Shown here piece after piece: positions 24,505 to 56,881 of a stretch of 64,000 nucleotides of DNA. This DNA comes from Apium graveolens (Eukaryota; Streptophyta; Magnoliopsida; Apiales; Apiaceae). The notes under the pieces were generated by a model. It saw nothing but the letters and a program-made list of their open reading frames with translations. It did not search any database and had not been told where the DNA came from. The DNA is taken from NCBI RefSeq assembly GCF_009905375.1, contig NC_133652.1:18216850-18280849 (forward strand). The letters are read 5' to 3'. Numbering within the stretch: position 1 is the first letter of the stretch; each line of letters opens with the position of its first letter. A program made the position numbers and the translations under genes.

Positions 24505-25049
24505 TGTTATACCCAAAATTTGGTATGAGATCAATACGGGTCAAACGCGGACTAAGTACTGTCAAGCTCGGTATTGCATTGTAAAAGGTGAGGACGCGTC
24601 AATAAATACAGGACGCGCCCAACTTTGAGGGGGTGTTTTATGAAGGATGGTTTTATGAAGGATGCATTATCCGTGAAGTTCTACGATTACGGACGAGCCT
24701 TGGGCCTTTGCGTTTGGGCCTCATAGTTGGACATTGCTAAGCTAGCGGAAGATGGATTCTGGATGGGCTTCTACCAGGCCTAGGAATAAGAAGTCTAAGC
24801 CCATTAGATTTGTTGTTCTCCAAGAACAACGTCAGGCTTGATCCCTATATAAAGGGTACATAGGCACATTGAGAGGGGTAAAAAGTTGAGAGCTGATAAG
24901 GGAGCCAACACTTACTCTGATCAATCTCAGTCTGAAACAACCACAAACTACCACACACTGCTAGATTTTCCGGCGAAGAACCACCGTCATAGATCTTAAT
25001 TCCGGCGAGAAACCTCAATCTTTGTTGTTACCAGATTCCCCCGTCAACA
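24505..25049 (+). repeat. Gypsy 5' LTR (shortened)
   Basis: 545 bp against 1,237 bp for the 3' LTR. The missing sequence corresponds to about 58795-59505 of the 3' copy, which holds most of the GACGCGTC words. A TATA box lies at 24846-24853. Confidence 0.9.
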
Positions 25050-25051
25050 AA

Positions 25052-25068
25052 TTGGCGCTAGAAGGGGG
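25052..25068 (+). other. Gypsy primer-binding site
   Basis: TTGGCGCTAGAAGG starts two bases after the LTR end and begins TGG as expected for a tRNA 3' CCA complement. The tRNA is not assigned. Confidence 0.6.
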
Positions 25069-25103
25069 GCTGTTGTTTAAGATCGTAATCTTGGGAGGAA
25101 AAG

Positions 25104-26080
25104 ATGTCTTATAATCATGATGGAAGTTCTTATGATGGAAATGATAGTAGATCTGAAGGAGAAGGCGAGAGAGGCTACACTCGCCATGAACCCTACGTGC
25201 CCAGAAACATAGCAGATCCCCCGAGAGCTCCAGATGTGGGAGGAACACCTCCAGTTCTCATCAGGAACGCTCATATCCTAGAACAGTTGTACCGCATGGG
25301 GATACACTTAATAGTTTTCAGTCGAGGCTGAATACGGTGGAGCGTCGCAAGACGAGGAGGGGTCGTCGTTTTCCCCGTCACGGCCACGCCGTGGAAAAAG
25401 CACCCGTAGTTGAGGGAGATGCCCAGGCTAGCGGAGAAAACCCGCGAATCACTCCGCGGCGCTTGGAATATTCTGATGATGTAGAACCCATTGTGGAGAT
25501 TGTCGATGAGGACACGGACGGTAGAGCGAGGCCTCGTCCCGTCAATCAGGATGTACCACATCTACATAGGTCTGGGCGTATGATGGACGAGCGTCGTCGT
25601 GCGGAAGATTCAGAACCCAGATGAGGAAATAATAGATTTTTCGACCTTGAAGAGAAGGCTTGGCATAAGGTTGGGAGATGATGATTTGAGAATGCTGCTG
25701 GTGGAATGACAGAAAAAAAGAAACGCTGAAGAGACGAGGCCCCGTGATACAACGCGTGTGGCCCTACATACCCAAGGGATGATAGGGTGCGGCACCGCGA
25801 GCACGAGCGTGCCCCTCCGCGAGGAAGGTTTGGAAATTATGGCCGAGGCTATCAGGAGAATGGACGAGAAATGATGGGATACCATCATGGAAGGGCGCCA
25901 TACAATGAAAGAAGAGATGGCACGCCCTCTATTGGGGAACCCCTCGTCATTGTTCCTGTAGCTTCCCACAGTGTTACGGGCAATGGAACCAAAACGCGTC
26001 CTCATGACCGGGATGACGCACGAGGTCAAGAAAGGTTGCAAAACAATGATGAGATACCACAGCGCGGTCAGGAGGAACTT
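25104..26080 (+). pseudogene. Gypsy gag, 5' part
   Basis: The frame starts MSYNHDGSSYDGNDS at 25104. It continues through a conserved segment (NSFQSRLNTVERR) after a frameshift near 25300. More shifts and stops follow at about 25622, 25706 and 25770. The sequence is Arg/Gly/Glu-rich and hydrophilic. It is cut at 26080 by copia A and resumes at 39298 in the same sense. Confidence 0.7.
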
Positions 26081-27133
26081 TGTTAGGAATATGTGTATTA
26101 GTTTGATGATAAGTTAAGCAAAACACTTAAGTAGAAATCTAGTGTTTGTAGCCTCAACGGATAAGACCATCTTCGCTATCCGTTGAAGGAGTAGCCTTAC
26201 TTAGCAATAAGTTTGGTATTGTAGCACATTTCACTCTCTAGTTTCAAGCTGTAATTTTTAGATGTTGTTAGGAAATAATCAGTCATGTTGACTACTAATG
26301 GATGTACAAATAGGAAGGCTAATTGTAAATATTTCATGCCTTGTAATTTTGTATAAGTGAAGAAGTGTCAACGGATATTGAAGACCTTCAACGGATAAGA
26401 AACAAAGCTTCAACGGATGTCTATAATGCTTCAACGGATAATATCCATCAATGGATAAGTGCTTCAACGGATAAAGCTTCAACTGCTAGAGTATCAACGG
26501 ATAAAGCCATCAACGGATGAAAGCTTCAACGAATGCTCAGTCTCATAGCAGTTGATAGTGACAGTTAACAAAGCTGACAGAGGCACATGGATTGACAGAG
26601 ATGTGGTAGCCTATTTCAGGAACAGCAGAAAAAGCAGCCATTTTTAGTCTGGTTCAAAAGGAAAGTCAACAGATAATTCCATATTACACTGGATAAAAAT
26701 GGAATAGAAACAAGTGGAGAACTATTTTCTTATTGTACTTTATCTTTGTCTTCACTTGTAAACTTGGTGATATATAAACCAAGTAGTAGCTAGTAATTAG
26801 ATGTGAATTTTCCCTGAGCTGTTTAGAAATATCAAGAGAGAAAATCATCTAGTTTGTACTAGGAAGCAGCTGTGATTTAATTTTGAATCACAGATTTTCT
26901 GAAATAACACATCTCTGGTGGAACAACAAATCCACCAGAAAAGTTTTTAAGTTCTTTGTGTTCATTACATTTGTGTTTGAATATATATCTGTCTGCATCA
27001 GCTCCAAGCAATTCACACACATTTGATCACTCAAACACTTAGCCTTACAAACTGCTCAAAACTTGAAAAAGTTTTGAGATTTACATTCAACCCCCCTTCT
27101 GTAAATCTCATTGTTAGTCCACTGGGAATAACA
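26081..27133 (+). repeat. Copia A 5' LTR
   Basis: Begins TGTTAGGAATATG and ends GGGAATAACA. It holds about 11 copies of TCAACGGATA or its complement (26153-26530), then a TATATAAA box at 26771-26778, so it looks like an upstream-element-plus-core-promoter layout. Confidence 0.93.
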
Positions 27134-27134
27134 A

Positions 27135-27147
27135 TTGGTATCAGAGC
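27135..27147 (+). other. Copia A primer-binding site
   Basis: TTGGTATCAGAGC directly after the LTR, the usual initiator-Met tRNA complement of plant copia elements. Confidence 0.88.
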
Positions 27148-27193
27148 AAGCTCTTAACATATAAAGAGTTTAAAGATCTATTCTGCTAATATC

Positions 27194-29631
27194 ATGAGTG
27201 CACAGAAGAACTCTCCTGTTACCATCATGAATAGGAAGGATATTGGTGTAAAGATTCCAGTCTTGGAAAAGAATAATTATCATCACTGGAAAGTGAAGAT
27301 GCATTTACATCTTCTTTCTCAAGATGAAAGCTACATCAACTGTATTGAAAATGGTCCTCACATCCCTCACAAGGTAGCCACAGCTGCTACTGCAACAGTT
27401 GCTGTTAGACAGTCTATTCCCAAGCCAAGAGCAGAATGGACTATTGAAGACATGGAAGAAATCCGCAAGGATAAGAGAGCCATGAACATTTTGTTTAATG
27501 GCTTAGATCAAGATATGTTTGACAATGTCATCAATTGCCAAACTGCAAAGGAAGTTTGAGACACTGTACAAATTATCTGTGAAGGTACTGAGCAGGTCGG
27601 AGAGAACAAAATGCAGCTTCTTATTCAACAGTATGAATATTTTCACTTTGAAGAAGGTGAATCATTAAATGATACCTTCAACAGGTTTCAGAAACTGTTG
27701 AATGGATTGAAGCTGTATGGTAGAGTGTACCAAGTCAAGGATTCCAACTTAAAATTTCTTAGGTCTCTGCCAAAGGAATGGAAGCCCATGACTGTCTCTT
27801 TGAGAAACTCTCAAGATTATAAGAACTTCACACTTGAAAGATTATATGGAATTTTGAAGACTTATGAACTTGAAATGGAGCAGGATGAGCTGTTGGAAAA
27901 GGGAAAGAGAAAAGGAGGAACAGTTGCTCTTGTAGCTGACTGTGAGAAGATGGAAGCCAGGAATGAGGAGAAGACAATGCCAAGTCTCAAAGTTGGTACA
28001 AACAAATCAGAATCAAGCAAGGGTAACGAGCAAGTTGCTGAGGATGAAGACAATTCCAGTCAGGATGAATCTGATGATATTGAAGAACATTTGGCCTTTC
28101 TGTCCAGGAGGTTTGCAAAGATGAAGTTCAGGAAAAACACAAGTTCACTAAGCCAAACAAAAACATGGCGGACAAATCAAAGTTCAAATGTTACAACTGT
28201 GGCATTAGTGGACACTTTGCAAGTGAGTGTAGGAAGCCAAATTCTGAGAAAAAGAAATTTGAGCAAGTTGATTACAAAAAGAAGTATTTTGATTTGCTCA
28301 AATAAAAGGAAAGAGCATTTCTCACTCAAGATGATTGGGCAGCAGATGGGGCAAACGAAGATGATGATGTGGAATATGTCAACCTAGCCCTGATGGCTAA
28401 TTCTGATGAAAATGAAACTAGTTCATCAAGCAACCAGGTAACTACTACTGATCTCTCTCAGCTCTCTAAACATAAATGCAATGAAGCCTTAAATGATATG
28501 ACCAATGAATTATATCATTTGCGTGTTTCCCTTAAATCTCTAGCAAAAGAAAACACTAGGATCAAGGAGAATAATGTGTTTTTAAGTGATAGGAATGCTG
28601 TGTTAGAGGATCAGGTAATTGAGCTTGAAAAGATAAAACTTAAATGCCTGACTGTTGAGAGTGAACTAGCAGAAGCTGTTAAGAAAGTGGAAATTCTTTC
28701 TAAACAGTTAGAAATTGAGCAAGAGGTAATCAAGGCCTGGAAAACATCTAGAGATGTCAGTGTTCAGATTGCAAAGGTCCAGGGAATTGAATCATTCCGT
28801 GAGGATGCCTGGAAGAAAAACAAAAAGAAATTAGAATTAATTGATGGATTGTCAACGGATGTGGAATCAACGGATGATGAAAGTTATCCGTTGAAGGAAG
28901 AAAAGGAGCATCCGTTGAAGGCTCATCAATTAAAACAGGCAAGTTCTTTTAAAAATAAAAATCTAAATAAAAAGAATGATTCAACTCTCAAGAACTTTGT
29001 CAAAGAAGGAGCTAGCACATCCAGAGATGTTAGTAAGGTGAATATAGGATATATGACTTTAGATCAGCTAAAAGATCGACTTAAGTTGGTTGAGGATAAG
29101 AAGGAAACTAAAAGAAAATCTAAAAGAAATGGGAAGGTAGGGATTAATAAATACAACAATTACACACCTGATAGGTATGCTCCTAGAAAAAGCTGTGTGC
29201 ATTGTAAAAGTGTTAATCACCTATCTGATAATTGCAAATCTGTTAAAAATACTCCCATGCCTTCAAATCCCTCCATACCTAACATGTCTATGTCATCTCT
29301 GCATGCTATGCCTGTTATGTCTCACCAGAATCCCCATGCACATTTTACAAACATGCCATACAGTAACAATCCTTATTTTACTGTATTTAGTATGCCTCAA
29401 ATGCCATACAGTATGCCTATGTGGAATAACATGCTTGCACAACATATGCCTTATCAAATTCAATCAAATGTGTTAAATGATTCTGTGACTAACCCTACAC
29501 TTCAACCAACCACATCTGAGACCAAGGTTGACCCAAAGTTACCTAAGTCAAAAGATGCAGGAGGAATGAAGTCTAGGAAAAAGACTAACAAGGGTGGACC
29601 CAAGGAAACTTGGGTACCAAAATCAACATGA
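27194..29631 (+). pseudogene. Copia A gag, three breaks
   Basis: It begins MSAQKNSPVTIMNRKDIG with the copia gag pattern (NNYHHWKVKM, LYGILKTYELEMEQ). Breaks: TGA at 27557-27559 (Trp site), a one-base shift near 28138, and TAA at 28303-28305. The zinc knuckle CYNCGISGHFASEC lies after the shift. A coiled-coil segment (about 28490-28800) follows, then CVHCKSVNHLSDNC. A Met/Pro/Tyr-rich tail ends at 29631 (PKETWVPKST), before pol in another frame. The DNA word TCAACGGAT/TATCCGTTG encodes STD and YPL/HPL repeats at about 28852-28920. Confidence 0.82.
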
Positions 29632-29644
29632 TTGACTTTGTTAT

Positions 29645-32600
29645 GTGCAGGGACAAAGAAGGAATCTATGGTACTTGGACAGTGGTTGTTCAAGACACAT
29701 GACAGGAGATTTCACCCTGCTCACAGAGTTTAAGGAGAGAGCTGGCCCTAGCATAACCTTTGGAGATAACAGCAAAGGATTCACTATGGGATATGGCTTG
29801 ATTTCAAGAGAAAATGTCATCATTGATGAGGTTGCATTGGTTGATGGTCTCAAACACAATTTATTGAGCATCAGTCAACTATGTGACAGAGGGAATACTA
29901 TTTCCTTCAATTCTGAAGCCTGTATTGTCACAAGTAAAAAGGACAATAAAGTGGTTCTAACTGGAGTTAGAAAAGGGAATGTGTACTTAGCTGATTTCAA
30001 CTCTACAGATGCAGAATCCATTACTTGTCTTCTCAGCAAAGCAAGTCCAGTTGAAAGTTGGCTATGGCACAAGAAGCTGTCCCATTTGAATTTCAAGACA
30101 ATGAATGATCTAGTCAAAAAGGACTTAGTTAGAGGAATGCCTCTAGTGGAATTCACAAGGGATGGACTGTGTGATGCTTGTCAGAAAGGAAAGCAAAAGA
30201 AAGTATCATTCAGTAAGAAGCTTGAATCTGCAATTGATGAACCACTGCAACTTCTATACATGGATCTTTTTGGACCAGTCAATGTATTGTCAATTTCAAG
30301 GAAAAGATACTGCCTAGTGATTGTAGATGATTTCTCAAAGTTTTCATGGGTTTATTTTCTTGGATCAAAGGATGAAGCTAGTGAAATCATCATCAATCAT
30401 ATCAAGCAAGTCAACAATCATCCTGATTTCAAAGTAAGGAATATTAGGAGTGACAATGGAACTGAGTTCAAGAATTCAACCATGAAGATGTTCTGTGAAG
30501 AAAATAGGATCATGCATGAGTTCTCAACTCCAAGAACTCCACAACAAAATGGTGTGGTGGAAAGGAAGAACAAATCACCAATTGAAGCTGCAAGGACAAT
30601 GCTTGAGGAGTCAAAACTCCCAACTTATTTTTGGGCTGAGGCTGTTAACTGTGCATGTTACACTCAGAATATTTCTCTAATCAATCAAGCAAAATGCATG
30701 ACTCCCTATCAATTATTCAAGAGAAGAAAACCAACTTTAAACTTTCTACATGTCTTTGGTTGCAAATGCTACATCTTAAGGAATCAATCTGATCACAAAG
30801 GAAAGTTTGATGCAAAGGCTGATGAAGGAATATTTATTGGTTATTCTGCTAGAAAATCATATAGGGTCTACAATCTAAGAACCAATATTGTCATGGAATC
30901 TGTACATGTTGTGTTTGATGATAAAAAGATTGATGGACTAACAGATGAGGGACATCATGAAGGACTCAAATTTGACAATATTGAGATATATTGTGATGAT
31001 AGTGAAGATGAGAATGATGAAGAAGGCATCTCAAGAAGAAACCCGAGTCTGCCTTTGGATAATGCACAGAATGCTGCATCCGTTGAAAGTCATAATTCAG
31101 CTTCCGTTGAAAGAAGCAATGCAGCATCCGTTGAAAGACAAAGTGCATCATCCATTGAAGTTCATAACGAAGCATCCGTTGATCACAGTCTGTCAACGGA
31201 TAATCAATTCACCTCATCAATTGATAGAACTCCCAATTCCTTTCAAAGGATCAGCAACTCAGGGGGAGTTTCAACAAATCAACATTCTATCTCACATCAT
31301 GACAATACTGAGGCAACCTCATCAAGGGCTAATCTACCACCTCAAAGGAAATGGACCAAGAATCACCCTTTTGAACTAATCATTGGTGATGCTACATCAA
31401 AAGTACAAACTAGAAGGGCTACTCAAGATGAATGTCTGTATAGTAGCTTTCTATCACAGGAGGAACCTAAGCGAGTGGAAGAAGCTCTTTTGGATCCATA
31501 TTGGATTTTAGCAATGCAAGAGGAGCTAAACCAATTTGAGAGGAACAAAGTATGGAAGCTGGTACCCAAGCCAAAGAACAAGAGTTCTATTGACACAAAA
31601 TGGGTATTCAGAAACAAGATGGATGAAAATGGCATTGTCATAAGAAATAAAGCCAGATTGGTTGCTAAAGGCTACTCTCAACAAGAGGGAATAGATTTTG
31701 ATGAAACATTTGCTCCAGTTGCCAGACTTGAAGCCATCAGAATCTTTCTAGCCTATGCAGCTAATGCCAATTTCAAAGTCTATCAGATGGATGTCAAGAG
31801 TGCATTTCTAAATGGAGAATTGGAAGAAGAAGTTTATGTAAGCCAACCTCCAGGTTTTGAAGATCCAAATTTTCCAGACCATGTGTATTATTTGTTGAAA
31901 GCACTCTATGGACTAAAGCAAGCACCTAGAGCCTGGTATGAGACTTTATCAAAGTTCCTTCTAGATAATCACTTCACAAGAGGTATTGTTGACAAAACTC
32001 TCTTCTTTAGAAATGTTAATGGCTCTAAGATACTTGTACAAATTTATGTAGATGATATTATATTTGGATCTACAGATGATAAACTTTGTAAAAAGTTTGC
32101 TAAATTAATGCAAAGTAAATATGAAATGAGCATGATGGGAGAGCTAACTTACTTTCTTGGTTTACAAGTTAGACAAGTTAGTGGTGGAATTTTTATTAGT
32201 CAAACTAAATATATTTATGATCTTTTAAAGAAGTTTGACTTAATGGATTGTTCACCTGCAAAAACTCCCATGGCCACTGCCACTAAGCTTGAATTAAACA
32301 AGGCTGAAAAGTCTGTGGATATTACAAGTTATAGAGGTATGGTTGGCTCACTTTTATATTTAACTGCTAGTAGACCTGATATTATGTTTTCTACTTGTCT
32401 CTGTGCTAGATTTCAAGCTGACCCTAAAGAATCTCACTTAGTGGCTATTAAAAGAATTTTCAGATATCTCAAGGGGACTCCAAATCTAGGAATTTGGTAC
32501 CCTAGAGAGTCTGGTTTTGATCTAATTGGCTACTCAGATGCAGATTATGCAGGTTGCAAAATAGACAGGAAAAGCACAACAGGCACCTGTCAATTTCTAG

Positions 32601-32989
32601 GGAACAAGCTTGTATCATGGTTCAGCAAGAAGCAGAATTCTGTTTCCACATCAACAGCTGAAGCTGAGTACATTGCAGCTGGTAGTTGCTGTGCACAAAT
32701 ACTATGGATGAGGAACCAGTTATTTGACTATGGTATAACTGTTGACAAAATTCCAATATTTTGTGACAACACAAGTGCCATTGCCATTACTGAAAATCCA
32801 GTGCAGCACTCAAGAACCAAGCACATTGATATCAAGTACCACTTCATTAGGGAACATGTGATGAAAGGTACAGTGGAACTTCATTTTGTTCCAAGTGAAA
32901 AGCAGATTGCAGACATATTTACCAAGCCACTTGATGAATCAACATTCACAAGATTAGTAAGTGAGTTAGGTATGCTTAACTATTCATAA
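29645..32989 (+). CDS. Copia A pol polyprotein (protease-integrase-RT-RNase H), open
   Basis: 1,114 residues without a stop. Protease: [10 protein letters not shown] near residue 13. Pre-integrase: [10 protein letters not shown] and CDACQKGK (HHCC). Integrase core: [16 protein letters not shown], then NGVVERKN. A low-complexity linker with ASVE repeats lies at residues about 478-520. [28 protein letters not shown] region and the YVDDIIFGS active site. RNase [15 protein letters not shown] and [10 protein letters not shown]-terminus: [21 protein letters not shown]. All catalytic blocks are present, so the enzyme could be active in trans although the element's own gag is broken. It follows gag in a different frame. 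Confidence 0.92.
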
Positions 32990-33520
32990 TCTATGTCATC
33001 TATGTAATCTGTCTTGTAGCCTGAAATGAATTTGCTGCAAGAACAAAGTTGGCTTTAATCAAGACTTATCCTGTCAACGGATATTCCCTATCCGTTGAAA
33101 GCCAAAATTGCTCTATCAACGGATATTCGTCATCCGTTGAAAGACAAATACATTTCTGGTAATTTTATCCTTCAACGGATAAAATGGTGTTGTTCATCAA
33201 CAGATAACTATTTACCTTATCCGTTGATGTGTCACGTCAGTGAGTCACAGCCGTTGATTCTTTTACTCAACCGTTGATACAGATATACAGTGTTGTATGT
33301 ATTTGTATTTACGGTAGTTTTCAGAATTTCTACAGTTTTATTTATTCCTGAACGGCTGTCACTTACTTAAAAGTATCATTTAATTATTTTATTTATGTTT
33401 TAATTCAAGAAAGTATAAAAGCCCAATTGAATTCTTATTTTCACTTTACGCTTTCTTGCAATTATCATTCTCTTTCTCTCTTAATTCTCAAGTTTTTCTC
33501 TGCAATCTCTACTCACAACA
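32990..33520 (+). promoter_or_regulatory. Copia A internal promoter-like region before the extra ORF
   Basis: Noncoding, 531 bp. Two 25-bp inverted pairs of the TCAACGGAT word (33074-33098, 33115-33139) and further single copies (to about 33275) precede a TATAAAAG box at 33414-33421. That box lies about 107 bp upstream of the extra ORF ATG, with a CT-rich leader between. The layout mirrors that of the LTR. Confidence 0.5.
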
Positions 33521-36500
33521 ATGGCACCAGTAGTCAAAATTATGTCTCAAACAGGATTTGTTTATGAAAAGAATAATTTCATAGTCTTAGTTGAAAAGAA
33601 TGAAGCCCATTCTGATTATCACAAGATGATGGACTTCATCAAGAACTGCAAACTGAGCTATGCAATGCTGGAAGCCCCAACCATCTACTGTGAAGTGATT
33701 GAGGAAATTTGGACAACTGCAGAGTTCAACTCCACAGATATGACTATTGCCTTCTCTCTCAAAGGTAAGGACTATTGCATTAATTGTGATGATATACAAT
33801 CTTGCTTTAAGTTGCCTGAGAATAATGCCATGACACCACATACTGATAAAGATGTCTCTGCAATGCTAGATTCCATAGGCTATGCTTTTGATTCTGCTAG
33901 TTTAGGTAGTATTAGAAGGAAAGGCCTTAGGAAAGAATGGAGTTTTCTTAAAGATACCTTTATTAAGGTTTTCTCTGGGAAGATTAGCAATTTTGATGCT
34001 ATCACTTCATCTCTTGTTAATATGCTCTATATGCTAGTTTCTGATAGGTACTTTAATTTTAGCAACTATGTTATGCTAGAATTAGGTTCCAGATTAGGTA
34101 ACAAAGCTAATAGACCACATAACATCTACTATGCTAGATTCTTTATGTTATTGGCTAACCATGTTGCTGAAGGTTTGGTTATATCCAATGAGAATAATAA
34201 ACTCAAATGCTGGGCACAAGAGAAAAGGGTCCTTGCAGACCTTTTGAGAATGAACCTCAACAGCCAGGTGCCATTGGTATACTTGCCAATCATGAATGCA
34301 CCACCGGTAAGTGAGGTAAATGTTTCTATAACTCCTACTATTTCCAACCCCAATGTTTCTTTGCCTTCTAGTGTGGCTATGGAACCTGTGTCTTTGTCCA
34401 AACAGGCTCCTACCAAAGCCACCAAATCTAAAGTTTCCAAAGTCAAGTCAAAGAAACCTACCTCTGTTGTTTCTCAAAAGACAACAGTTGTAACAACTAC
34501 CATAAACCCTGAAGGGAGTGAACAGGGTGTGAGTGGTGAGGGGAGGGGTGAACATCAAAAAGCCCCCCAGGATAAGGTGGGAGAGGTGAGTGGTACCCAA
34601 ATCAGCCAAGCCACAGTCTCTCAAAAGACTGTGGTGGTTCAAAAGGAGTCCAACACATCCCTAGTTGCATCCTCCCAAAAGGTTGTAACTATTGAAAATA
34701 GTCCCCAACCAGGGACACAGAACAAAAGAGGGAGGGACACTGAAGCCACACATTCACCATTTAAAGCCTTTTCAAGGAAGTAGAAGGCCAAGACCCTAGT
34801 TTCCACACAAGGGACACACACAGCACAGATACATCCACCTGTATCTGTGCCTTCTCAAATTCAGCTTGATGTGATTCCAACAAATGTGGAATCACAGCCC
34901 CATTCTCTCAATATAGAAACATACCATTCATCAAACTCTCCAACACCCTCTCTGGATGTGGATATGATATTCACATCAATTCCTGATTCTCCCTCATTAA
35001 AACTCAGGGAGGAGCCCCACTCAAAACCTGGTGATCATCATCTTTTAGATGATTTGTTGGATCATCAGCCAATTCTTTCAGATGTAGTTGCAGAATCTGT
35101 GTCACCACACTTAAAATCAATCCACACAGATTCAACAATTATGTCACTTTCTATATTTACATCTTTTCCTTCTTCAACGGATATCTCTCATCCGTTGACA
35201 AATGGTTGTTCTTCAACGGATAAGCTTAACAGCAGTTATCCGTTGATACCATCAGTTTCCACTTCAACGGATACTCCCTATCCGTTGATGGCCTCTACAC
35301 ACTTAACAGAAACAATTCCAACTGTAGAGGACATGGCAACTGTACAATCACTTTTAGGCTTGAGGGAAGGGAGTGATTTTTTGAGTGAGAGGCTGGGTTG
35401 CTCCCAGGCAAAAGGAGAGGTTGAGAGTCACCAAATGCATGCTATTTCTTCCAGCATGGCAAAAGTAAGTGAGAGGAGTGCCACCTTAGAAGGTGAAGGT
35501 GAGGGTGTGAGGGTGTGTGTGAGCCAGGGGGAGCCCCTGATGCAAGAACAGAGAGAAATTGAGAGAAAGGCAGGTACAGAAGCTATAAGGGTGGATCCAG
35601 CCATTGCTAGTGAGTTAATGAAAGTGGATGAAGCAGATAAGGAAAGACAATTTCAGCAACATTATAAAGCTATCATTGATAACATTTCCTTGGATGCTGA
35701 CACTTTTACTCACCCTGTTTCAGCCTTTCAATTTTTGGCTGCTCAGGGCAATGTGGAGGCAGAACAGACACTACACATTGTACACACTTCAGAATCTCTT
35801 CTCAGAGACAAAGCTGCTGTCAACAGGCTGCCTTCTCAAGCTGGTGAGCCATCTGAAGAATTTGGAGTAAATTCTAATGATGATGACTCTAATTCTTTGA
35901 ATGAGAGCATGAACTTAGGGGGAGTAGAAGGCCCAAGTTCTGCTCCTGCTCTTCCTGAATGGGCACTGGCCAAATCACCAACACCAGGAGAATTTGGTGT
36001 CACTTTGGTCAGACAAGTCATGACAATTCAGAAGGCCTTTCAGGAGACTCAAGATGCTGGTACCAAGGCAATTCTTCAAGCTCATCTGGAATCTCTGCAT
36101 CTCTTGCAGTTGCAGCATTACCAGCAAAATCTAAGTGTGGATGAGCTCAAGCAGGACATTGCTGATCTGAAATCCTACAATGCTGAGAAATTGGATTCAG
36201 TTATACCCTATGGTACTATGCAAGATTTGTTGGGGAGACTGAGGAAAGCATCTGATGCTGACAAGAGGCTGGCCAGATTGGAAGATAGGGTTCAAATCAT
36301 TGAAGACTCTATGGTCACCATTCTTCAGAATCAACAAACTCAAACAAATCTACTCATGCAGCTGGAAAAAGCACAAGGATTGACCCCTACCCTTGATGAT
36401 AACAAAAAGGGGGAGAATAAAGGGGAAGGGGAAGGAGAGCCATCTACAACAGTTCAGATTTCTCAAGTGCTAGTTCCTGTCATCACAACTTCTCCACCAA

Positions 36501-38050
36501 TTTAAGTCAAAGGAAAGCTAGATGGAATTGATCTAATCCAGATAGCAGCAGCTGAATTGCAAGTCAAAGAGCAAAGGAAGAAGATTGATGAAAAGATGCA
36601 ACTAATATTTGGTTATACAACTTCTCAATCACAATCTGTGAAGCATAGCACAAAAGTGGAATCAATTATTATGGAACTCAAGCCAGTAGGGAGGCATAAG
36701 GATGGAGAAACTTCTTCCAAAGATCTGCAACCTATGGTTCTCAAGCCCAACAACAGCTTCAACAAGGACTCTATAAAGAACCCTCTAAGCCTTGCTCAAA
36801 TGAAAGGAGTGGATTTTCCTCTTCCAAAGCCTGATGAAGACAAGCTTTTGGGTAGAAGTATCATAAAGCTCAAAGAGAACATGGATGAGGCTGTAAGGAG
36901 GAACATGGCTGTTATCTTTAGAGAGGGAAAGAGCATCTATGTGATGCAAGGACATCCCAAATTCTCAATAGCCAAGAGGGAAGAAACCAAGAGGTTGAAG
37001 GAAGAAGCCAAACAGCTAAAGGCTAACAAAAGAGCACAAGCAAAGCTTGAAAAATAGCTAAAGTTAAGTCAGGCTGAAGAACAGAAAGAAATTGAAGACA
37101 AAGGTGAAGATAGAGCTATGGGGGACATGGTTGGTACTAAGATGGAGGAAAGAAGTAAGGAAGAATGGCAGAAAGGGAATAGAAAGAAGGTCAATGCAAA
37201 GAGAAAGATGGTAGATGAGACTGAAGAAAACCAATCAATATCCAAACCACTACCCTCTATTCCTGAACCCATTGTGCCTGACCCCTTCATAAACATTCAT
37301 GGTGAACCAATCATTCCTAAGGAGGAACCAATTGATTGGGGCACCATCAAATTGCCCACCTTCCTAACCTCTTTTACACCATCAAAGAAGCAGAAAAGAA
37401 GAATCAAATCAACACCCTCTAAAGCCTCAATCAAATTCACACAGAAGCCTAAGCCTAAACCTCAAACCTCTAAAGATGATTATGTTCACATCTGTGACAT
37501 AAAAGAATTTTCAGACATTGAACTCTATCTGGATGAGCTGGAGGATGTAAGGGGAATAACTGCCTACAGACAGCTACTAGAAAGACTAGTGTTCAAATAC
37601 AAAGGAGCTGGGGAAAGAACATGGCCTCTTCACAGAATTCTGAATGAAGGCTGCTCTACCTTGATTAGAGTCTACTCAGCCATACAAAAGGATTCTGGCT
37701 TTACCAGGACTGCCAGGACTGAGATTCTCAATAAGATTGCCAACATAAGGAAAACTTGGTGGGAGCCCAATGCCTTGCCTAGAACTTTACTCATTCAAGA
37801 GAGAGGTATTACAATTCACAAATCACCTCATTGGTTGATGGAGTTCAGAGACAACAAAGGAGTCAGAAGATTTTTCAGAATTGAAGATCAGCTAAAGATT
37901 GCCAGTAATGAAACTCTCAAGGATATGCAGTCTAAGTTAGATATCAATGAAGAAGATGAAGCTGAATTCTACAGACAACTTCAACTTCAAATAGAGGAGA
38001 ATGACAGGAGGTTAGGAAAGAAAACCAGGGATCAAAGGAAAAGAAAGTAA
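33521..38050 (+). pseudogene. Copia A extra ORF after pol, 1,509 codons, three in-frame stops
   Basis: One reading frame runs from MAPVVKIMSQTGFVYEKN to RDQRKRK, broken only by TAG 34781-34783, TAA 36503-36505 and TAG 37055-37057. The N-terminal about 250 residues look globular (FSLKGKDYCINCDDIQSCFK, WSFLKDTFIKVFSGKISNFD). The middle is Ser/Thr/Pro-rich with STD...YPL repeats from the DNA word. Then come coiled-coil stretches (LQHYQQNLSVDELKQDIADL) and a Lys/Arg-rich C-terminal part (KKQKRRIKSTPSK). Sireviruses often have an env-like ORF here, but I see no signal peptide or clear membrane span. The basic regions would equally suit a nucleic-acid-binding role. Function unknown. Confidence 0.72.
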
Positions 38051-38225
38051 TTTGCTCAGGCTAAAGGAGCACCCTTGGAAACAATGTATTTCTTCAACTT
38101 CATCTCAGCATATACACTTTTGTAGCACTTTTGAATTTCTGCTTTGTTACAGTTTATATATTTGTTAAGTGTTTTGTTATCATCAAGCTAAACCCAAATT
38201 TATGCCTACAGTTCTAGTAGACATA

Positions 38226-38238
38226 AATAGGGGGAGAT
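38226..38238 (+). other. Copia A polypurine tract
   Basis: AATAGGGGGAGAT sits immediately before the 3' LTR (TGTTAGG). Confidence 0.88.
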
Positions 38239-39292
38239 TGTTAGGAATATGTGTATTAGTTTGATGATAAGTTAAGCAAAACACTTAAGTAGAAATCTAG
38301 TGTTTGTAGCCTCAACGGATAAGACCATCTTGGCTATCCGTTGAAGGAGTAGCCTTACTTAGCAATAAGTTTGGTATTGTAGCATATTTTACTCTCTAGT
38401 TTCAAGCTGTAATTCTTAGATGTTGTTAGGAAATAATCAGTCATGTTGACTACTAATGGATGTACAAATAGGAGGGCTAATTGTAAATATTTCATGCCTT
38501 GTAATTTTGTATAAGCGAAAAAGTGTCAACGGATATTGAAGACCTTCAACGGATAAGAAACAAAGCTTCAACGGATGTCTCTAATGCTTCAACGGATAAT
38601 ATCCATCAACGGATAAGTGCTTCAACGGATAAAGCTTCAACTGCTAGAGCATCAACGGATAAAGCCATCAACGGATGAAAGCTTCAACGGATGCTCAGTC
38701 TCATAGCAGTTGATAGTGACAGTTAACAAAGCTGACAGAGGCACATGGATTGACAGAGATGTGATAGCCTATTTCAGGAACAACAGAAAAAGCAGCCATT
38801 TTTAGTCTGGTTCAAAATGGAAAGTCAACAGATAATTCCATATTACACTGGATAAAAATGGAATAGAAACAAGTGGAGAACTATTTTCTTATTGTACTTT
38901 ATCTTTGTCTTCACTTGTAAACTTGGTGATATATAAACCAAGTAGTAGCTAGTAATTATATGTGAATTTTCCCTGAGCTGTTTAGAAATATCAAGAGAGA
39001 AAATCATCTAGTTTGTACTAGGAAGCAGCTGTGATTTAATTTTGAATCACAGATTTTCTGAAATAACACATCTCTGGTGGAACAACAAATCCACCAGAAA
39101 AGTTTTTAAGTTCTTTGTGTTCATTACATTTGTGTTTGAATATATATTTGTCTGCATCAGCTCCAAGCAATTCACACACATTTGATCACTCAAACACTTA
39201 GCCTTACAAACTGCTCAAAACTTGAAAAAGTTTTGAGATTTACATTCAACCCCCCTTCTGTAAATCTCATTGTTAGTCCACTGGGAATAACA
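38239..39292 (+). repeat. Copia A 3' LTR
   Basis: Near-identical to the 5' LTR; differences include CTTCGCT/CTTGGCT, CGAATG/CGGATG and CAATGG/CAACGG. Several 5'-LTR changes fall inside the repeated word, while the 3' LTR keeps the consensus. Confidence 0.93.
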
Positions 39293-39297
39293 AACTT

Positions 39298-40170: not shown

Positions 40171-41754
40171 GTGAACACGCGGAGAGAATGGAGCCCACCG
40201 TCAAACTATGAAAGGAGGGTAAACAATTACACTCTGCCGGCAGCATCCATTGATCATATCTTCGAGGTGAATAAGGATAGAGGAATATTCAAGAAACCAG
40301 ACCATCTAACCTCATGGCAGAGTAGAGACAAGAAAAAACATTATGACTACCATGAGTCTACCGGCCACGACACCCACGAGTGTCGTCACCTAAAAGATGA
40401 AATTGAAAAAATGATCAAGGCCGGATATTTGGGTGAGTGGATTGATAAGGTGAAGCGACACGGAGGAAATGATGATAAAGGAAAAGATGAAAGACCTGCG
40501 AAGGATGTCGAAAATGCGGCGGAGGTTAAGTTTCAAAGGGATGGAAGTATTCGGGTGATCTTCGGAGGACATCTGTTCGTTGGCGATAGCAATCGAGCGT
40601 TGAAAAGGAATGCACGAGAGGCGCGACACCCGCCGCTCACCAACATTCATAGCTTGGAAGACAGACCTCCAAAAATATTTAAAGGGGAATCTGCTGATAT
40701 TACATTCAGGGAAAGAGAATCAATGTGGGTGCATCATCCCCATAATGATGCGCTGGTGATTACTATGCTTATTGGGGCAATGAACGTGCATCGAGTTTTC
40801 TTGGACAATGAGAGATCTGCTAACATCCTGTATTACAGCACGTATAAAAAATTGGGTTTCCCAGATAGCGACATGTATTTCGAAGATGCACACGTCTATG
40901 ACTTCACTGGGGAATCAGTGAGAGTTATGGGGTCGGTTAGGCTTCCAGTTACACTTGGGGAAGGAGCTCTGTCTGTCACTCAAATGATAGACTTCAAAGT
41001 GCTGGATCAGGACTCCGTGCACAACATGCTGATGGGAAGACCTTGGTTGCGAGCGTTCAGGGTGATAACCTCGATACATCACTTGATGATAATAAAGTTT
41101 CCAACACCTAACAGAGTGGGCAGTCTGAGAGGGTCGCAATACGAATCACGCGACTGCTATCACAAGGCTGTTAAAGAGTTTCGTATAAGAAGATATGAGG
41201 GAAAAGGTCTTCCATTTGAGGATGCAGAGGACATTCAGACAAAGCCAAGTGGAGAGGTTCATGCCCATTATTTTGTGGTAGGTCCAGAGGAAGAAGAAAC
41301 TCAGGCTACCGAGACCCCTGTTTTGATATTGAGGAATGCTTCGAGGATCCGTAGTGTGGAAGAAGTTGTGGTGAACTATGTAGAAGGGATCACACAAAGG
41401 GAGGTTAACGGAGAAAAGTTGGAAGGCAGAAGTGAGATTTTACAAAGTCTCGAAAGTAGCCTCAAGGTGGACGCTCCTCGAAATGAGGACGCGCCCTTGA
41501 AGAGTGAAAATGGAAGTGAGGTTGATGCTCCTCGAAAGGAGGACGCACCCTCCACACCTGCATTGCACAAAGCCATGCCTTATTCTGAGGTAGATGCTCC
41601 CACACATGGGGACGCGCCCTCGGATGCTAGAATGGAGGTCGAGGAACCCCGAGACTTTGATTTTGATCTGGATCCCACGATCCCTATGCCTGCCGAGAAA
41701 ACGGGGCCGGTCGAAGACACAATATCTGTTCCGGTCGACAAGGATGACCCATGA
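40171..41754 (+). pseudogene. Gypsy gag C-terminus and aspartic protease
   Basis: 527 open codons. The degenerate gag zinc finger DYHESTGHDTHEC has Asp at the usual first Cys. The protease follows (about 40750-41060) with VFLDNERSANILYYSTYKKL and NMLMGRPWL. The usual D-G-G/S active-site neighbourhood reads DNERSA, so activity is doubtful. The C-terminal spacer carries VDAP...EDAP repeats at about 41467-41625, encoded by the element's GACGC(T/G)CC/GGACGCGCCC DNA word. Confidence 0.75.
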
Positions 41755-44884: not shown

Positions 44885-45930
44885 CGCGACTTTGGCCCCT
44901 TACATATCTTTTTTATTATATACTTAGGGTTGTGCCCAGATTATAGACTAGAAGCAATAAAATTCCTCCTAGCCTAGGGGGGTAGTGCATGTACTACTTA
45001 CTTTAGAACTAGTTGAAAGATCATTTTTTCGAATAAATTCCCCACAGAGCATAGTAGCCGTGGGACTGGTGCACTTTTGACACCAGAGCGCACTATTAAT
45101 AAAAACTTTGAAAAATTCCAATGGTTGTTTGCTTGTGGATCTGCTTGGTTATATGACGCGTCCTCATAACAAGATGCGCCCTAATAAATAATCCTTTACT
45201 TACATTTACAAGAACACGATTGGCAAAAGGGAAACTAAATAAAACTCAAGTAAAGATGGAGGCAAGACGCGTCTTGTGTCTAAGGACGCGCCTAAGTGAT
45301 CTTGGTTGATGCTCCTTGAGTTTTATGTTTCTTTGATTTTAACATTCTATAACAAAAAATGAAGACACATCCTCACTAAGGACGCGTCCAGCCTGACATG
45401 TCAAAATCATTATCTTCAGGAATAAAAGATAGACGCGTCAGGAAACTAGAACGCGCCCATCTATATTGTGCTTTGCCTAAATGCAAAAATATATGACATG
45501 TTATCATGCTAAGAGAAGAATATACCATCCAGAAAGTTCAAAATAGCCTAAGTAAATGGAATAATCTAGACGTACCCAAGTATAAGGACACGCCCTACGG
45601 TCTATGGTGTTGGAAATGAATTAATAAGGAAGATGTGTCCAGAAGCGAGGACGCGCCCTTGCATAAAATCTTATTAGCTTGTAATGAGGAAGGGGAGAAT
45701 AGTAAGATTGAAAAGGCAACACGTCCTCAGCGTAAGACGCTCCCATATGCATGACATAACAAGATTAAGAAAATAAGCATAACATGCATAAAGGTAATTA
45801 AAGGAGAGAAATCTCATGAAAAGTGCAAACAAACGAAGTCCAGAGATAATCATTACAATTTGCAATTCTTGAAAGGGCCCACACCCTTAAAGTAGTTCAG
45901 ATAAAAACTGCATGAATAGACATAAGACGC
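44885..45930. other. Gypsy 3' noncoding region rich in GACGCGTC pairs
   Basis: No gene. Pairs of GACGCGTC and GGACGCGCC recur with start-to-start spacing of 18-19 bp, for example near 45158, 45267 and 45432, with decayed copies (GACACGCC, AACACGTCC) between. Confidence 0.6.
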
Positions 45931-45933
45931 GCC

Positions 45934-48900
45934 CTAAGCAGGAGGCGCGTCCTGGGGCTTGTCTTGGTTGTCTGGAGGAGGAGGCTGAGTCTGAAGTGGA
46001 GAAGGTGCCGGGGACGCGTCATCTTCTTCCAGGCCAAGGATGATTCTCTTGTTTTTGATGGAATCTGCAGCCCTGATTTTGAAATCATTTATCCACTTTT
46101 GGGTGTATTCATCAAACTTGGAAAAAGTGTATTCTGGGTCATTGGCTATGAACCCAGAAAACCACTCTTCAAACCCAGCTGCAAAGCCATTCTGGTAAAC
46201 CAATTTTTTCTCTTCCTTCCATCCATGTAACCTGTCATCGTTTAAAGTGTCCAGCTCCAGTTGCATGGTGGAATTTAAGGCTACAACACTCTCCATGGCC
46301 TTCTCCACAGAGGTAACATTACCTTCCAGCAGTGCCTTCTCACCCTCAAGACGCGTCCTGTCTTCCTGTAGTCGCTTGATTTCAGCATCTTTCTCGTGGA
46401 TAAGCAAAGTAATGTTCTTTTCCAGAAGTTTGATCTTGTCTTCGGCCTAGTTTTTAGCAGTGTCAGTAACAGCAAAACGCGCCCTGAGTCTAGCGGCCAT
46501 GTTTACACTTTGTCTAGCATGCAAGTGGAGCTCGACTGCGGCTCTCACCATGGCTTGCTCTGTTTGTTCTTCTGTCCTGAAAGTCCACCCTCGAACTTCA
46601 TCTTCAGTGAAGTCTCCAGCCGAGGACGTTCCCAGATATCTGAGAACAAAGGATTGCTCATCTGACACTATTTTCTGACACTTTGAGGGCGTGTCCTCCT
46701 TATCAGGGATGTCTGAGATTGTGGTATCAATGATTCTTGGTGGAGGGGGAGGAGTGACAGCAGGCATGGGGTCTCTAACCTTTGGATCAGGCTTAACAGG
46801 AGTTTGCTTTATGGCTCTCAGCTTTTTGATGGCCCCAATAGCAAATCCTTTTGGGAGAGAAGTCATATATGTGACATAAACATGGGAAAATTATTATCCA
46901 AGTAATGTAGACGCGTCCTGTGTGGTATGACATACCTTTTGAAAACTATGTAATGCAATAATATTATATGGGATGCCAGGATGCGTCCTGATAGTAAGAC
47001 GCGCCGAGAATTTTTTTTATAAATTGTCAATACATATATATATGTCAAGTAAAGTGCATGTAAAGGCCTGAAGGACACATCAACTATAACATGGATTATG
47101 AGGAAAGTAAGTAACAAACTAACAACATCAGTCATGAATATTATAAGAAGACGCGTCCTAATAGTAAGGCGCACCCAAAGCAAAAACATGGATGTGGGAA
47201 ACATCTGCAGGTTAGATTAAGTTAAAGTTATGCATTTAAGAGAAAGGGCGAACATATGCATGGCGCGTCATAAACGAAGGACGCGTCTTAATGATTCTTA
47301 CCTTGCTCTAAATCCACTTGTCTACTAATGTCCAGTTGGACAAATTCTGTTGCGTTGAGCCCTCTAGCTATCTCAGAAGCAGTTAGGACATGTTTTCCAT
47401 TGTAAAAATCACGGTATGTTAGGTCCCAATAAGTTTGTAGAGGGGGGGGGGTTGGATACAAACTATACCGTTTAATCGAATTTAATGCGGAATAAAAAGG
47501 TTGACCAAAATTTAAGTTAAATGAAACTATTATTAAACTTGAAAGGTGTTACAACAACGGTATCGTTTACAAGGGATTAATCTCAAATAAATTATCACAA
47601 ATCTAGAATAAATTCAACATTAACTTTTTCTATTTTTGTAATAAAAAGATCAAATGCTAGAAGCAATTTGAGATTAAGTTCTAGGGATTTTGATCCGCTA
47701 GATAGTTACACAAGAACAAGAGAATGATTTCTAGTGGTTTAGATTTAACTTTAATTGCTAGAAATATATGATCTTGAATTGCAGTAGTGAAGAGATGAAA
47801 TGTTGTATTTTTATTTTCTGCGGCTGCTGCTTATGTTCTTGAGTAGATGAAGTGTATTCACTGTGTGTTGAATGTCTGTTGCTGTTGTCTTTTAATAATT
47901 CAATCAACAGAGATCAAATGAACTGGCAAGACAATCAGTGAGACAATCTGTTGAACTAGCAAGACAATCGGCATTACAATCTGTTGAACTAGCAAGAGAA
48001 TCGGTGAGACAATCATTTGAACTAGCAAGACAATCAGTGAGACAATCATTTGAACTAGCAAGACAATCCCATAGCTGGTAGAACTTTCGGTATGACAATC
48101 CATTTGAACTAGTATGACTTTCAGTATGACAATTGATTGTCATACTGGTTCAATTGATTGCCATGCTGAATTAATATTGAATATAAATTCAAAATCATAT
48201 CTGAAAATTCATAATATTAATTCAGAATTAATTAATCAATTAATTCAATTAATCAATAAATTAATCTTTGGAGATATAATTTATTTTCTTAATTAAATTA
48301 TATGACTTAATTAAATAATAGAGAATTAATACTACTCTTGAACAACAACCACTCTTCTGAAAATCTTCTGAAAATCACTGAAAATTATGAATCAATTCCA
48401 CCACTTCAATGTTGACACTCGATGTACTGTCTGGTTCATGAGTGACTAACTTCCGTGACATTTCTTCATGTCTTGACTTTGATAACTTGATTTTCTTCAG
48501 ATTAAAACCCTATAATTATCTGATACCCTGACAAGATCTCTGACACTTGATTAAATCCACAATCTTGATTTATATCACTGAGACTTGATCAATTTCTTGA
48601 ACTTCTTCCAGTGAATTAATTCCTCAAGTCTGTAGATGAACATTGTTTCTGAATCCTTTGACAGATGTTATTTTGAGAGATCTCTTTGACGGTAGATCCA
48701 CTATTTACTTGTTACATTTTTATTTGAGTTGAGTAAAATCCTCGAATAAACAAATAGGCTATGACATATGCCTTTCACGGTATTTACAAATGGAACCAAC
48801 CCTTGCAGATAAAGCCCCAATCTTTTTGAGATTGGCCTCCATAATCATATCCTTAAGGTTAAAATGCTTCTCAACATACTTCAACACCTTCTCTGCCCTC

Positions 48901-50203
48901 CTTTTCTTTCTTCCTGTCAGCTCTTTCTGAGTTCTTTTATCTATGGAAGAAAGATAAGGGTTACAAAAGGGAAAAAGGGAAGGATAACAAAAGAGAAGAC
49001 GCGTCATGTAGAAGGGGACGCGTCCTAGACGTCGCACTTACTTGGCTCTAAGTTAAAACGAACGCGAGCCCTTTTGACATCATAGATGTAGAAAAATGGC
49101 TCCTTCCAGTCTCGTTCATGGCTGATCTTGCCCTTATTAAACCCTTTATTGTTCAACCATTTGTTAACAACCAAGAAGTGGTAGCCTTGGATGGACTTCC
49201 TAATACTGAAGAAATAGCTGAATTCTTTCATGGAGGGCACGCCCAACCTTAAATTATGATACATAATGTACAAGGCCTATGCTAGTTTGTATGAGTTTGG
49301 GGACAGTTGGACTGGAGCCACATCATACTACTTCAGAATTTTCTTGATGTACGGGTGCAAGGGCGCGCCCATACCCAGGGAAATGAGCTTTGGAGTGAGG
49401 ACCATTCTTGGGATCCTTAGATTCTCCATGTTAAAGATGTGGGGTCTCATCATCCTAAGAGGACGCGCCCAGATGCCTTCCATGTCATAATACTTCATCG
49501 TCCAACCAATCTCCAAATCTGTTACAGTAGATTTCATGCCAACACAGGCCGATTTATTTTCCCTCTTCCTCCAAACATTCTTCTCAGTCTCACGGAGGTC
49601 TTCTAGCTCTTTCTAATCGAAATCGAGCTCTACATCGCTTGACTCCCAATGCTCCAATAGGGAGACAGACTGTTGAGGGGAGACGGGGTACTTGTCAGGC
49701 TGAGGGATTCTCTTCCCAAATTCACCCTCACTATGAGGTGAGGGCGCATCCTCAACAGGAGACGCGTCCCTGGCTGGAGATGTTTCTTGAGCAGGAGACG
49801 CGTCCTCATCGAGAACAATTACGCGTGAGGGCTGTTGGCTGGTTGTGGGGACAATCTCATCATCAGACCAATCTTCAATGGTCGATATAGTATTGAGAAT
49901 TGGAGTTCTTTTGTGATTTAATTTTCCTCTTTTCATCCTAGCGCTTATAGGGACATGATCCTTAGAGTCAGAACTCGAGTCTGCCATGATCGAGGATTAT
50001 GATTTGAGAGACTCGAAGACGCGTGCTTCTGTCTCAAGAAAGGGAGTAGTCCTATGGAAGTCAGATGGTTGGGGTTCGAAAGAAAGTGGGGGAGGAGAGT
50101 AGACCCCTATACGCTTGTTGAGAGCCTTAAAAGGATGAAAAGGAGAAGAAGACGTGTCCTCCAGCTGAAATAAGAAGGAAAAAAATTTCGAGGACGCGTC
50201 CAT
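45934..50203 (-). pseudogene. Antisense spliced extra gene of the gypsy element, interrupted
   Basis: Reading minus, exons join in phase at GT/AG sites: 50203 or 49987 to 49042, 48940-48783 plus 47416-47302 (one exon split by a solo LTR), and 46847-45934. The first part is acidic and Ser/Pro-rich with DASP/EDAP repeats. A conserved central part follows (GMGAPLHPYIKKILKYYDVA, MKEFSYFFSIRKSIQGYHFL, WKEPFFYI, KHFNLKDMI). The last exon begins FAIGAIKKLRA and has a long coiled coil (DAEIKRLQEDRTRLEGEKAL), then EEWFSGFIANDPEYTF. Stops: TAA 49997, TAG 49613, TAG near 49281, TAG 46447. Antisense ORFs are known in Tat elements; biochemical function is unknown. Confidence 0.7.
47417..48777 (-). mobile_element. 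Solo LTR of a copia-B-related family, reversed
   Basis: On plus it begins TGTTAGGTCCCAAT and ends TATGCCTTTCA, that is, TGAAAGG...AACA on minus. The target duplication is CGGTA (47412-47416, 48778-48782). Its minus strand aligns with copia B LTRs throughout: the start word CATATGTCATAGCC, the GACAATC/TTGTCTTGC repeats, the end word TTGGGACCTAACA. No internal region is present, so it is a recombination remnant. It splits an exon of the antisense gene. Confidence 0.9.
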
Positions 50204-50624
50204 GTTTACAAAAAAAAGATATTAAAAAAAATAATAATAATAAAGAAAGTGGGAAGAAAGAATTCAATAGGAAGGCGCGTCATACGAGTGTGACGCGTCC
50301 TGGTATGGTCGCGTGTCCTTAATATATGCGATAAACAAGCACTAGGATGCGCCCTACATGGTAGACGCATTCTAAACTAGCAAAAATACATGGGAATTTT
50401 AATCGACTATGAGCGATTTGGGGAAAATTCAATAAAACCCTAGAAACATATACCCAGGAATCAAAGAAGCAAAATATGTTACTTTAATCGATACATACAT
50501 ACACACACACAATAAAGATGAAGAACAGTTCGTGGGGAAATGAAGTACATGAACAGTTTTTTATCTATTACAGTCGATTTGCTCGGTGAAATTAAGATGT
50601 AATGAAAGATTTACATACCTTGTG
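50204..50624 (-). promoter_or_regulatory. 5' UTR/intron of the gypsy antisense gene
   Basis: Lies upstream of the antisense start codon, with GACGCGTC words at about 50190-50360. At its outer end the minus strand reads CAAG/GTATGTAAATC, a strong splice donor, so most of this stretch is probably a 5' UTR intron. Confidence 0.45.
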
Positions 50625-52024
50625 TGTAAGTCATATGTCATAGCCTATTTGTATATTCGAGGATTCAACTCAACTCAAATAAGAATGTAATAAGTAAATA
50701 GTGGATCTACCGTCAAAAGAGATCTCACAGAGTAATATCTGTCAAAGGATTCAGAAACAAGGTTCATCTACAGACTTGAGGAATTAACTCACTAGAAGAA
50801 GTTCAAGAAATTGATCATGCCTCAGTGATATAAATCAAGAGTGTGGATTTAATCAAGTGACAGAGATCTCGTCAGAGTATCATTAATTACAAGGATTTAA
50901 TTTGAAGAAAATCAAAGTATCAAAGTCAAGACATGAAGAAACGTCACGGAAGTTAGTCACTCATGAACCAGACAGTACATCGAGTGTCAATGTTGAAGTG
51001 GTGGAATTGATTCATAATTCTTAGTGATTTTCAGAAGATATTCAGAAGATTGGTTGCTGCTCAGGGTTAGTATTAATTCTCTATTAATTAATTAAGTCAT
51101 ATAATTTAATTAAGAAAATAAATTATATCTGCAAAGATTAATTTATTTGATTAATTAAATAAATTGATTAATTAATTCAGAATTAATATTAAGGATTTTC
51201 AGAATTTAAATTGGATTAAAATTCATTTAAATTCAGCAAGTCAAACTGATTGTACTAGTATGACAATCGGTATGACAATCAATAGTCATACCGAAAGTCA
51301 TGCTAGTACAAACAATTGTCTTGCCGAAAGTTACACTGGAAGAGAATTGTCTTGCTAGTTCAATCAGATTGTCTTGCTAGTACAAACAATTGTCTTGCCG
51401 AAAGTTACACTGGAAGAGAATTGTCTTGCTAGTTCAATCAGATTGTCTTGCTAGTACAAACAATTGTCATACCGAAAGTCTCTCCAGTTCAACAGATTGT
51501 CTTGCTAGTACAATTGGATTGTCTCACCGATTGTCATTGCAGTTCATTCTATTCTGTTGTTTGATTAAAAGAAGCAGAAGCAGAACACATTCATTCAATC
51601 CAACAATACAGAACCCGAGAACAAAAGAAAAAGAAGCAGAACAATATTTCATCTTCTCTGCAAAACTTCAAGATCAATTTCTAGATTGTAAAGTTAAATC
51701 CAATCAACTAGAAATCTTTATCTTGTTCTTGTGTAACAATCTAGCAGATCAAAATCCCTAGAACTTAATCTCAAATTGCGTTTAGCATTTGAATCTTTTT
51801 ATTACAAAAATAGAAAAAGTTCATGTCGAATTTATTCTAGATTTGTGATAATTAATTTGAGATTAATTCCTTGTAATCGATACAGTTGTTGTAACACCTT
51901 TCAAGTTTAATAATATTTTATTTAACTTGAATTTTGTTTCACATTTTTTTATTCCGCATTTAATTCGATTATTCGGTACTGTTTGTATTCAACCCCCCTT
52001 CTACAAACACATTGGGACCTAACA
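50625..52024 (+). repeat. Copia B 5' LTR
   Basis: TGTAAGTCATATG...GGGACCTAACA. An internal array (about 51240-51540) repeats TTGTCTTGCTAGT, TTGTCTTGCCGAAAGT and GACAATCGGTATGACAATC. One unit of about 74 bp is tandemly duplicated (about 51310-51455). A 123-codon ORF over the array (51390-51761) is an accident of the repeat and recurs in the other LTR. Confidence 0.93.
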
Positions 52025-52025
52025 A

Positions 52026-52038
52026 TTGGTATCAGAGC
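52026..52038 (+). other. Copia B primer-binding site
   Basis: TTGGTATCAGAGC, initiator-Met tRNA complement, two bases after the LTR. Confidence 0.88.
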
Positions 52039-52120
52039 CTTCTGATTAACGAACAAATCAAGATCCTAGACTTTTGTGATTTTTCAACTCTTTGAATTTT
52101 TATTCATTCAAAAATTCATA

Positions 52121-54352: not shown

Positions 54353-54393
54353 TCTATTTGAAGTGCAGGGCAGTATACAGGTGTAACCGGTAG

Positions 54394-56880: not shown

Positions 56881-56881
56881 A

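Follow-up and report, generated by a model that had tools for sequence, protein, structure and literature searches.

A short DNA word repeated in coding and noncoding DNA of a Sirevirus-type retrotransposon of celery and switched in a sister family

Copia A and its repeated word

The 64,000-nucleotide stretch of the celery (Apium graveolens) genome analysed here, hereafter the window (contig NC_133652.1, positions 18,216,850 to 18,280,849), contains Copia A, a long terminal repeat (LTR) retrotransposon of the Sirevirus type that spans 13,212 bp at 26081-39292 on the forward strand and is seeded with a short DNA word in its LTRs, its genes and the DNA between them (Table 1). The target-site duplication AACTT lies on both sides (26076-26080 and 39293-39297), and the two LTRs are identical in 1038 of 1054 aligned columns. 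The copy is degenerate, with gag broken across several frames and three in-frame stops in the extra open reading frame (ORF) after pol. Its primer binding site presumably pairs with the initiator Met tRNA. A 651-bp piece of pol matched itself and 39 other genomic copies at 99% (all 40 scored, of 3815 initial candidates), so the family is large and includes young copies.

The polypurine tract AGGGGGAG, followed by AT and the TG of the 3' LTR, is given in PMC2829016 as a Sirevirus signature, and exactly this arrangement is found at 38229-38240. The same source describes several identical polypurine tracts by the 3' LTR, mostly past ENV; the octamer occurs five times in Copia A (31261, 35526, 35917, 36408 and 38229), one of them within 0.5 kb of the LTR. 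The envelope-like ORF after pol, known from many though not all Sireviruses, is present at 33521-38050, and so are boxes with a CGG-CCG core in the LTR and before ENV. Bousios et al. (2010; PMC2829016) described such RM boxes in the LTRs of Sireviruses and ahead of ENV; 12 of 13 elements had this core, and Osr10 and HOPIE had a few boxes where ENV begins. Palindromic LTR boxes are thus already on record, as the preliminary description of this DNA had stated. Copia A is a member of this RM-box kind of Sirevirus.

The exact 9-mer TCAACGGAT occurs 40 times in Copia A (27 forward, 13 reverse) and nowhere in the rest of the window, while 300 dinucleotide shuffles of the element gave a mean of 0.013 and a maximum of one; the interior alone holds 20 against 0.013 expected. 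When one mismatch was allowed to the 10-mer TCAACGGATA, 44 of 45 sites in the window fell within 26081-39292, compared with a mean of 3.09 and a maximum of seven in 100 shuffles of the window. The 40-odd copies claimed in the preliminary description are therefore present, far above expectation, and its clusters in the LTRs, gag, pol, the gap before the extra ORF and the extra ORF itself were all recovered, spaced roughly every 2-3 kb. Counting one LTR and the interior, 14 of 29 exact words lie in gag, pol or the extra ORF, where they are translated as STD, YPL or HPL, and SVE or SVD, in the different frames that the preliminary description had given. The positions in gag, in the linker between integrase and reverse transcriptase (RT) and in the extra ORF look tolerant of varied peptides, which would let coding DNA carry the word.

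The single 10-mer is not a palindrome, contrary to the initial description; a palindrome requires two words in facing orientation. The inverted pair with a 5-bp gap, which that description gave one base short, is in full TCAACGGATA-N5-TATCCGTTGA (15 bp start to start). It is common, occurring four times in the window, in two cases with one arm altered by an A-to-G change, but its gap is not constant, as the remaining close facing pairs are spaced 18, 23 and 24 bp start to start. Across the genome (3,332,948,439 bases in 4849 contigs) the full self-complementary pair was found at 8545 sites and its reversed control at none; the pattern shortened by one base had 25 forward and 26 reverse matches.

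Copia A has 63 CpGs against 479 predicted from base composition, and the exact words hold 40 of them. Outside the words the observed/expected ratio is 0.047, compared with 0.65 in the remaining window. This depletion indicates that Copia A was probably exposed to CG methylation in its past, and that the CpGs of the word have persisted because they are either selected or protected.

Table 1. Features of Copia A, in window coordinates
Feature	Position	Strand	Description
5' LTR	26081..27133	+	9 exact words (26154-26519); TATA-like TATATAAA at 26771
Primer binding site TGGTATCAGAGC	27136..27147	+	read from sequence
gag word cluster	28852..28918	+	4 exact words; peptides STD/STD/YPL/HPL
pol ORF	29645..32989	+	domains Pol_BBD, GAG-pre-integrase, rve, SH3, RVT_2 (Copia RT)
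pol word cluster, integrase SH3-like domain/RT linker	31077..31202	+	4 exact words and decayed ones; peptides SVE/SVD/STD
pol/extra-ORF gap word cluster	33074..33227	+	6 exact words, facing pairs among them
Extra (envelope-like) ORF	33521..38050	+	one frame (from coordinates): pieces 33521-34783, 34847-36505, 36557-37057, 37118-38050
N-terminal domain of extra ORF	33521..34225	+	predicted fold VANC21-like; dN/dS (nonsynonymous to synonymous ratio) 0.08 among family copies
Extra-ORF word cluster	35174..35288	+	6 exact words, forming three facing pairs
Polypurine tract AGGGGGAG and AT	38229..38238	+	immediately 5' of LTR TG
3' LTR	38239..39292	+	11 exact words (38312-38693)

Conservation of the word as DNA and its switch in a sister family

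Twenty loci were sampled through genome-wide matches to the word pair shortened by one base, a pattern that drew the more divergent relatives; all 20 carried the same kind of element, with identities of about 68-98% by segment. For the difference rates, the two most distant loci (L009 and L026) and uncovered segments were excluded and the word columns were set by a third sequence. Choosing loci by an exact word pair biases the sample towards conserved sites within the gap and the extra ORF, but not within the LTR, gag or pol. At non-CpG letters, the words differed less than the rest in every segment: 0.027 vs 0.110 in the LTR, 0 vs 0.108 in gag, 0.029 vs 0.078 in pol, 0.021 vs 0.147 in the gap and 0.018 vs 0.114 in the extra ORF, so that word letters changed at 0-37% of the rate of other letters. 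The contrast held at third codon positions (gag 0 vs 0.163, pol 0.032 vs 0.128, extra ORF 0.030 vs 0.162) and was weakest at first codon positions in pol (0.037 vs 0.053). Of 500 random placements of 9-mers, no more than 0.2% reached the observed rate. The CpGs of the word had decayed in individual copies at 0.07-0.16, compared with 0.25-0.50 for other CpGs, in the four segments having both; the extra-ORF segment of the window has word CpGs only. In the copies examined, the words were kept while their surroundings drifted, and decay of word sites at the normal rate, which would have spoken for shared descent alone, was not seen.

The same sites were compared with those of a sister family. The celery extra-ORF relative P0014 (AgCh_028948) has PTD and HPS where Copia A has STD and YPL, and among its genomic relatives (67 scored of 91,473 candidates) ten loci (L035-L044) were taken as family 2. 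At the DNA level their word is CCGACGGAT or TCGACGGAT, in the extra ORF as well as the preceding gap. The third base of NC?ACGGAT sites is A in 365 and G in five cases in the family of Copia A (family 1, 18 loci), whereas in family 2 it is G in 50 and A and C in one each. In the alignment, each of the six word sites of the Copia A extra ORF is matched by one CCGACGGAT-type site of family 2. Of the 60 combinations of site and locus, 56 have C at position 1 and 56 have G at position 3, and positions 7, 8 and 9 agree with the Copia A word in 59, 59 and 60, while 1119 of 3295 spacer positions differ (34%). Four of these sites show exact CCGACGGAT, each in 4-7 of the ten loci. The departures are CCGGTGGAT at the first site in six of ten loci and CCGATGGAT at the fifth in eight, and 26 of the 60 combinations have T at position 5, as expected from CpG decay. 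The word has thus undergone a concerted switch in the extra-ORF coding DNA of the sister family, whose gap carries the new word as well. In a third family, L009, the word is of the CCGACGGAT type in the LTR and a mixture elsewhere.

Peptides of further relatives suggest that pol and gag changed in a similar way. Four of the 35 linkers listed, all from celery (P0063, P0064, P0065 and P0090), have SVG at one or more of the Copia A SVE sites and retain SVE at the first, where TCAACGGAT and TCGACGGAT would both encode SVE, and 12 of 45 gag relatives (10 named celery) have HPS or YPS at the YPL of Copia A. STD and HPL peptides in several Heracleum and carrot gags suggest that the word predates the genus Apium; against a greater age, no word peptides occur in the Heracleum extra-ORF relatives P0006, P0008, P0013 and P0020 or in the carrot pols P0070 and P0071. 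The Heracleum sosnowskyi gag P0154 consists in part of tandem peptide units, each able to hold one word per orientation, which suggests that word clusters grow by tandem duplication.

Because the word is conserved whether or not the DNA around it is coding, third codon positions included, and is switched at homologous sites of the sister family, it functions as DNA and selection acts at the DNA level, which bears out the reasoning of the preliminary description. The concerted switch further indicates that a single reader probably changed its specificity between the families.

A candidate reader and its rivals

Models of the conserved N-terminal domain of the extra ORF gave one outstanding fold match, VANC21 bound to its target DNA, with modest scores. 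Among 30 extra-ORF members, DUF1985 had no match at E up to 1, and PF20167 ("putative plant transposon protein") was matched in four, with a best E of 3.5e-5. Synonymous divergence among family copies is 0.47 in the N-terminal part of the extra ORF (33521-34783), compared with 0.15 in its own tail and 0.22 in RT; recombination between families may be one explanation. One relative of the extra ORF, P0053, is filed under Klebsiella pneumoniae, probably a contaminated record.

VANC21 is a transposon-encoded anti-silencing protein that binds a 9-base word and causes a local loss of methylation, with effects spreading into coding regions (PMC5735166, PMC10398659). The likeness to VANC21 and its transposon VANDAL21 (Hosaka 2017, PMC5735166) lies in a protein encoded by a plant transposable element, to which the Copia A domain is a candidate match by predicted fold, and in many copies of a 9-base word within the element itself, with related but different words in sister families; such a dense, short and family-specific word is what we find in Copia A. 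VANDAL is, however, a DNA transposon and Copia A an LTR retrotransposon; the VANC21 sites are noncoding and tandem, whereas the words of Copia A are also in coding DNA; and the binding and demethylation known for VANC21 are predictions for the Copia A domain. 

We propose that a protein recognises the word on double-stranded DNA as a site specific to this element, and that its placement in five kinds of location would bring binding spots at intervals of about 2-3 kb over the 13-kb element. Its reader would be the element's own extra-ORF protein. The proposal of the preliminary description that the word is bound by a protein of the element is favoured by the VANC21-like predicted fold, with the binding itself still a prediction. 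Binding at the clusters could counteract CG methylation and silencing of its own family, and the scattered sites would extend this cover over the whole element, which would explain why they occur along its entire length, gag and pol included. A marked drop in CG methylation between the LTRs of sunflower SIRE elements (PMC12844716) would fit such anti-silencing. We put at about even the chance that Copia A encodes its own VANC-like word-binding factor, with the word as its binding site along the element. More tentatively, and with somewhat less than even confidence, we extend this to Sireviruses in general, whose "envelope-like" genes might encode VANC-type DNA-binding anti-silencing proteins and not envelopes, with RM boxes as target words placed at intervals, coding DNA included, and with word and reader co-evolving in each family.

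The word could instead be read by a host transcription factor, MYB/MYB3R or another, with LTR sites as enhancers and internal sites adding to them or driving the extra ORF. The CAACGG of the word agrees with plant MYB core sites, in which AACGG is required, and an AACGG core is also shared with the mitosis-specific MSA element bound by MYB3R. Within the LTR, the main cluster is 287-438 bp from the start and precedes the TATA-like box, and the authors of PMC2829016 found sites for mainly stress-related factors in RM boxes. We nevertheless consider a host reader unlikely, since the AAC core is lost with GACGG at the homologous sister-family sites, and since neither a concerted switch between families nor sites deep in the coding DNA of gag, pol and the extra ORF would be simply explained by a host factor. 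The cell-cycle site suggested in the preliminary description fares no better: the word has A after GG, where the MSA consensus has a pyrimidine, and with GACGG in 50 of 52 NC?ACGGAT sites of family 2 the AACGG core is not universal, so an array of MYB3R/MSA sites is disfavoured.

Gag and integrase are element-encoded too, and sites spread over the whole element, conserved and switched as a set, would suit one of these proteins or a chromatin factor acting in genome packaging, integration targeting or nuclear retention; RNA packaging would, however, distinguish the orientations of the word, unlike the pattern here, and we regard this explanation as improbable, the structural comparisons having covered the extra-ORF domain. 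Judging from the arrangement of the words, we rate still lower the idea of hairpins in the genomic RNA that are built from facing words, with arms co-varying between families. Perfect 10-bp arms with 5-base loops at 8545 sites, arms that change jointly in family 2 and an excess of small RNAs at the palindrome clusters of maize Sireviruses (PMC10760457) would agree with hairpins, but most LTR and most pol words are same-directed with no partner nearby, hairpins do not require identical letters in every stem, and the spacing of facing pairs is variable. Least probable of all are functionless repeats grown by slippage and homogenised by conversion: the tandem units of P0154 do suggest local expansion, but word positions are kept while other letters differ by 8-15%, scattered 9-bp conversion tracts in both orientations are implausible, and CpGs are retained mainly in the words.

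Known systems, neighbouring elements and wider meaning

Like the Sirevirus RM boxes (PMC2829016), the word has many copies in the LTR and more before ENV, dyad pairs with a CGG...CCG core, and CpG islands. Copia A goes beyond them in that gag, the pol linker and the extra ORF also contain clusters, read in different frames, in the motif switch between sister families and in the measured constraint on third codon positions. In the RM-box account of PMC2829016, as far as we know its text, boxes in gag or pol were not encountered, and the account left open both the reader of the boxes and the function of the Sirevirus ENV. The LTR palindromes CACCGGACNNNGTCCGGTG of maize Sireviruses likewise bear CpG but are a different word, treated as small-RNA targets (via PMC10760457). 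The seeding of gag and pol, the measured third-position constraint, the concerted motif switch in coding DNA, the near-confinement of CpGs to the word clusters and the VANC21-like predicted fold appear to be new.

Copia A is surrounded by an element that is Gypsy-like by eye, with a terminal repeat pair at 24739-24933 and 59565-59759 (94%). This element bears a different CpG palindrome, GGACGCGTCC, at 24593-25995, 41488-41611, 45155-50294 and 58518-59018. Its core GACGCG has 55 strand matches in 24.3 kb (about 35 places, self-complementary ones counted twice), while shuffles counted likewise gave a mean of 1.5 and a maximum of five; some sites fall within the coding part of a gag-like ORF, with EDAP peptides, and antisense ORFs show DASP and DAPP peptides. 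It is a parallel case in an unrelated element, and since it too has its own palindrome in coding and noncoding DNA, the strategy of word seeding may be general beyond Copia A. The window also contains a second, shorter Copia (50625-57192; repeat pair starting at 50625 and 56893) with a 758-amino-acid ORF at 52076-54352 that has Retrotran_gag_2 and a zinc knuckle, an ORF with FAR1 DNA-binding and MULE transposase domains (10628-11563), and an ORF with a fasciclin domain (3330-4382), probably a host gene.

The two words provide a built-in specificity control for the reading by the element's own protein. If this reading is true, the anti-silencing strategy of one group of DNA transposons would reach an abundant lineage of plant retrotransposons, and protein-coding DNA would double as regulatory address space.
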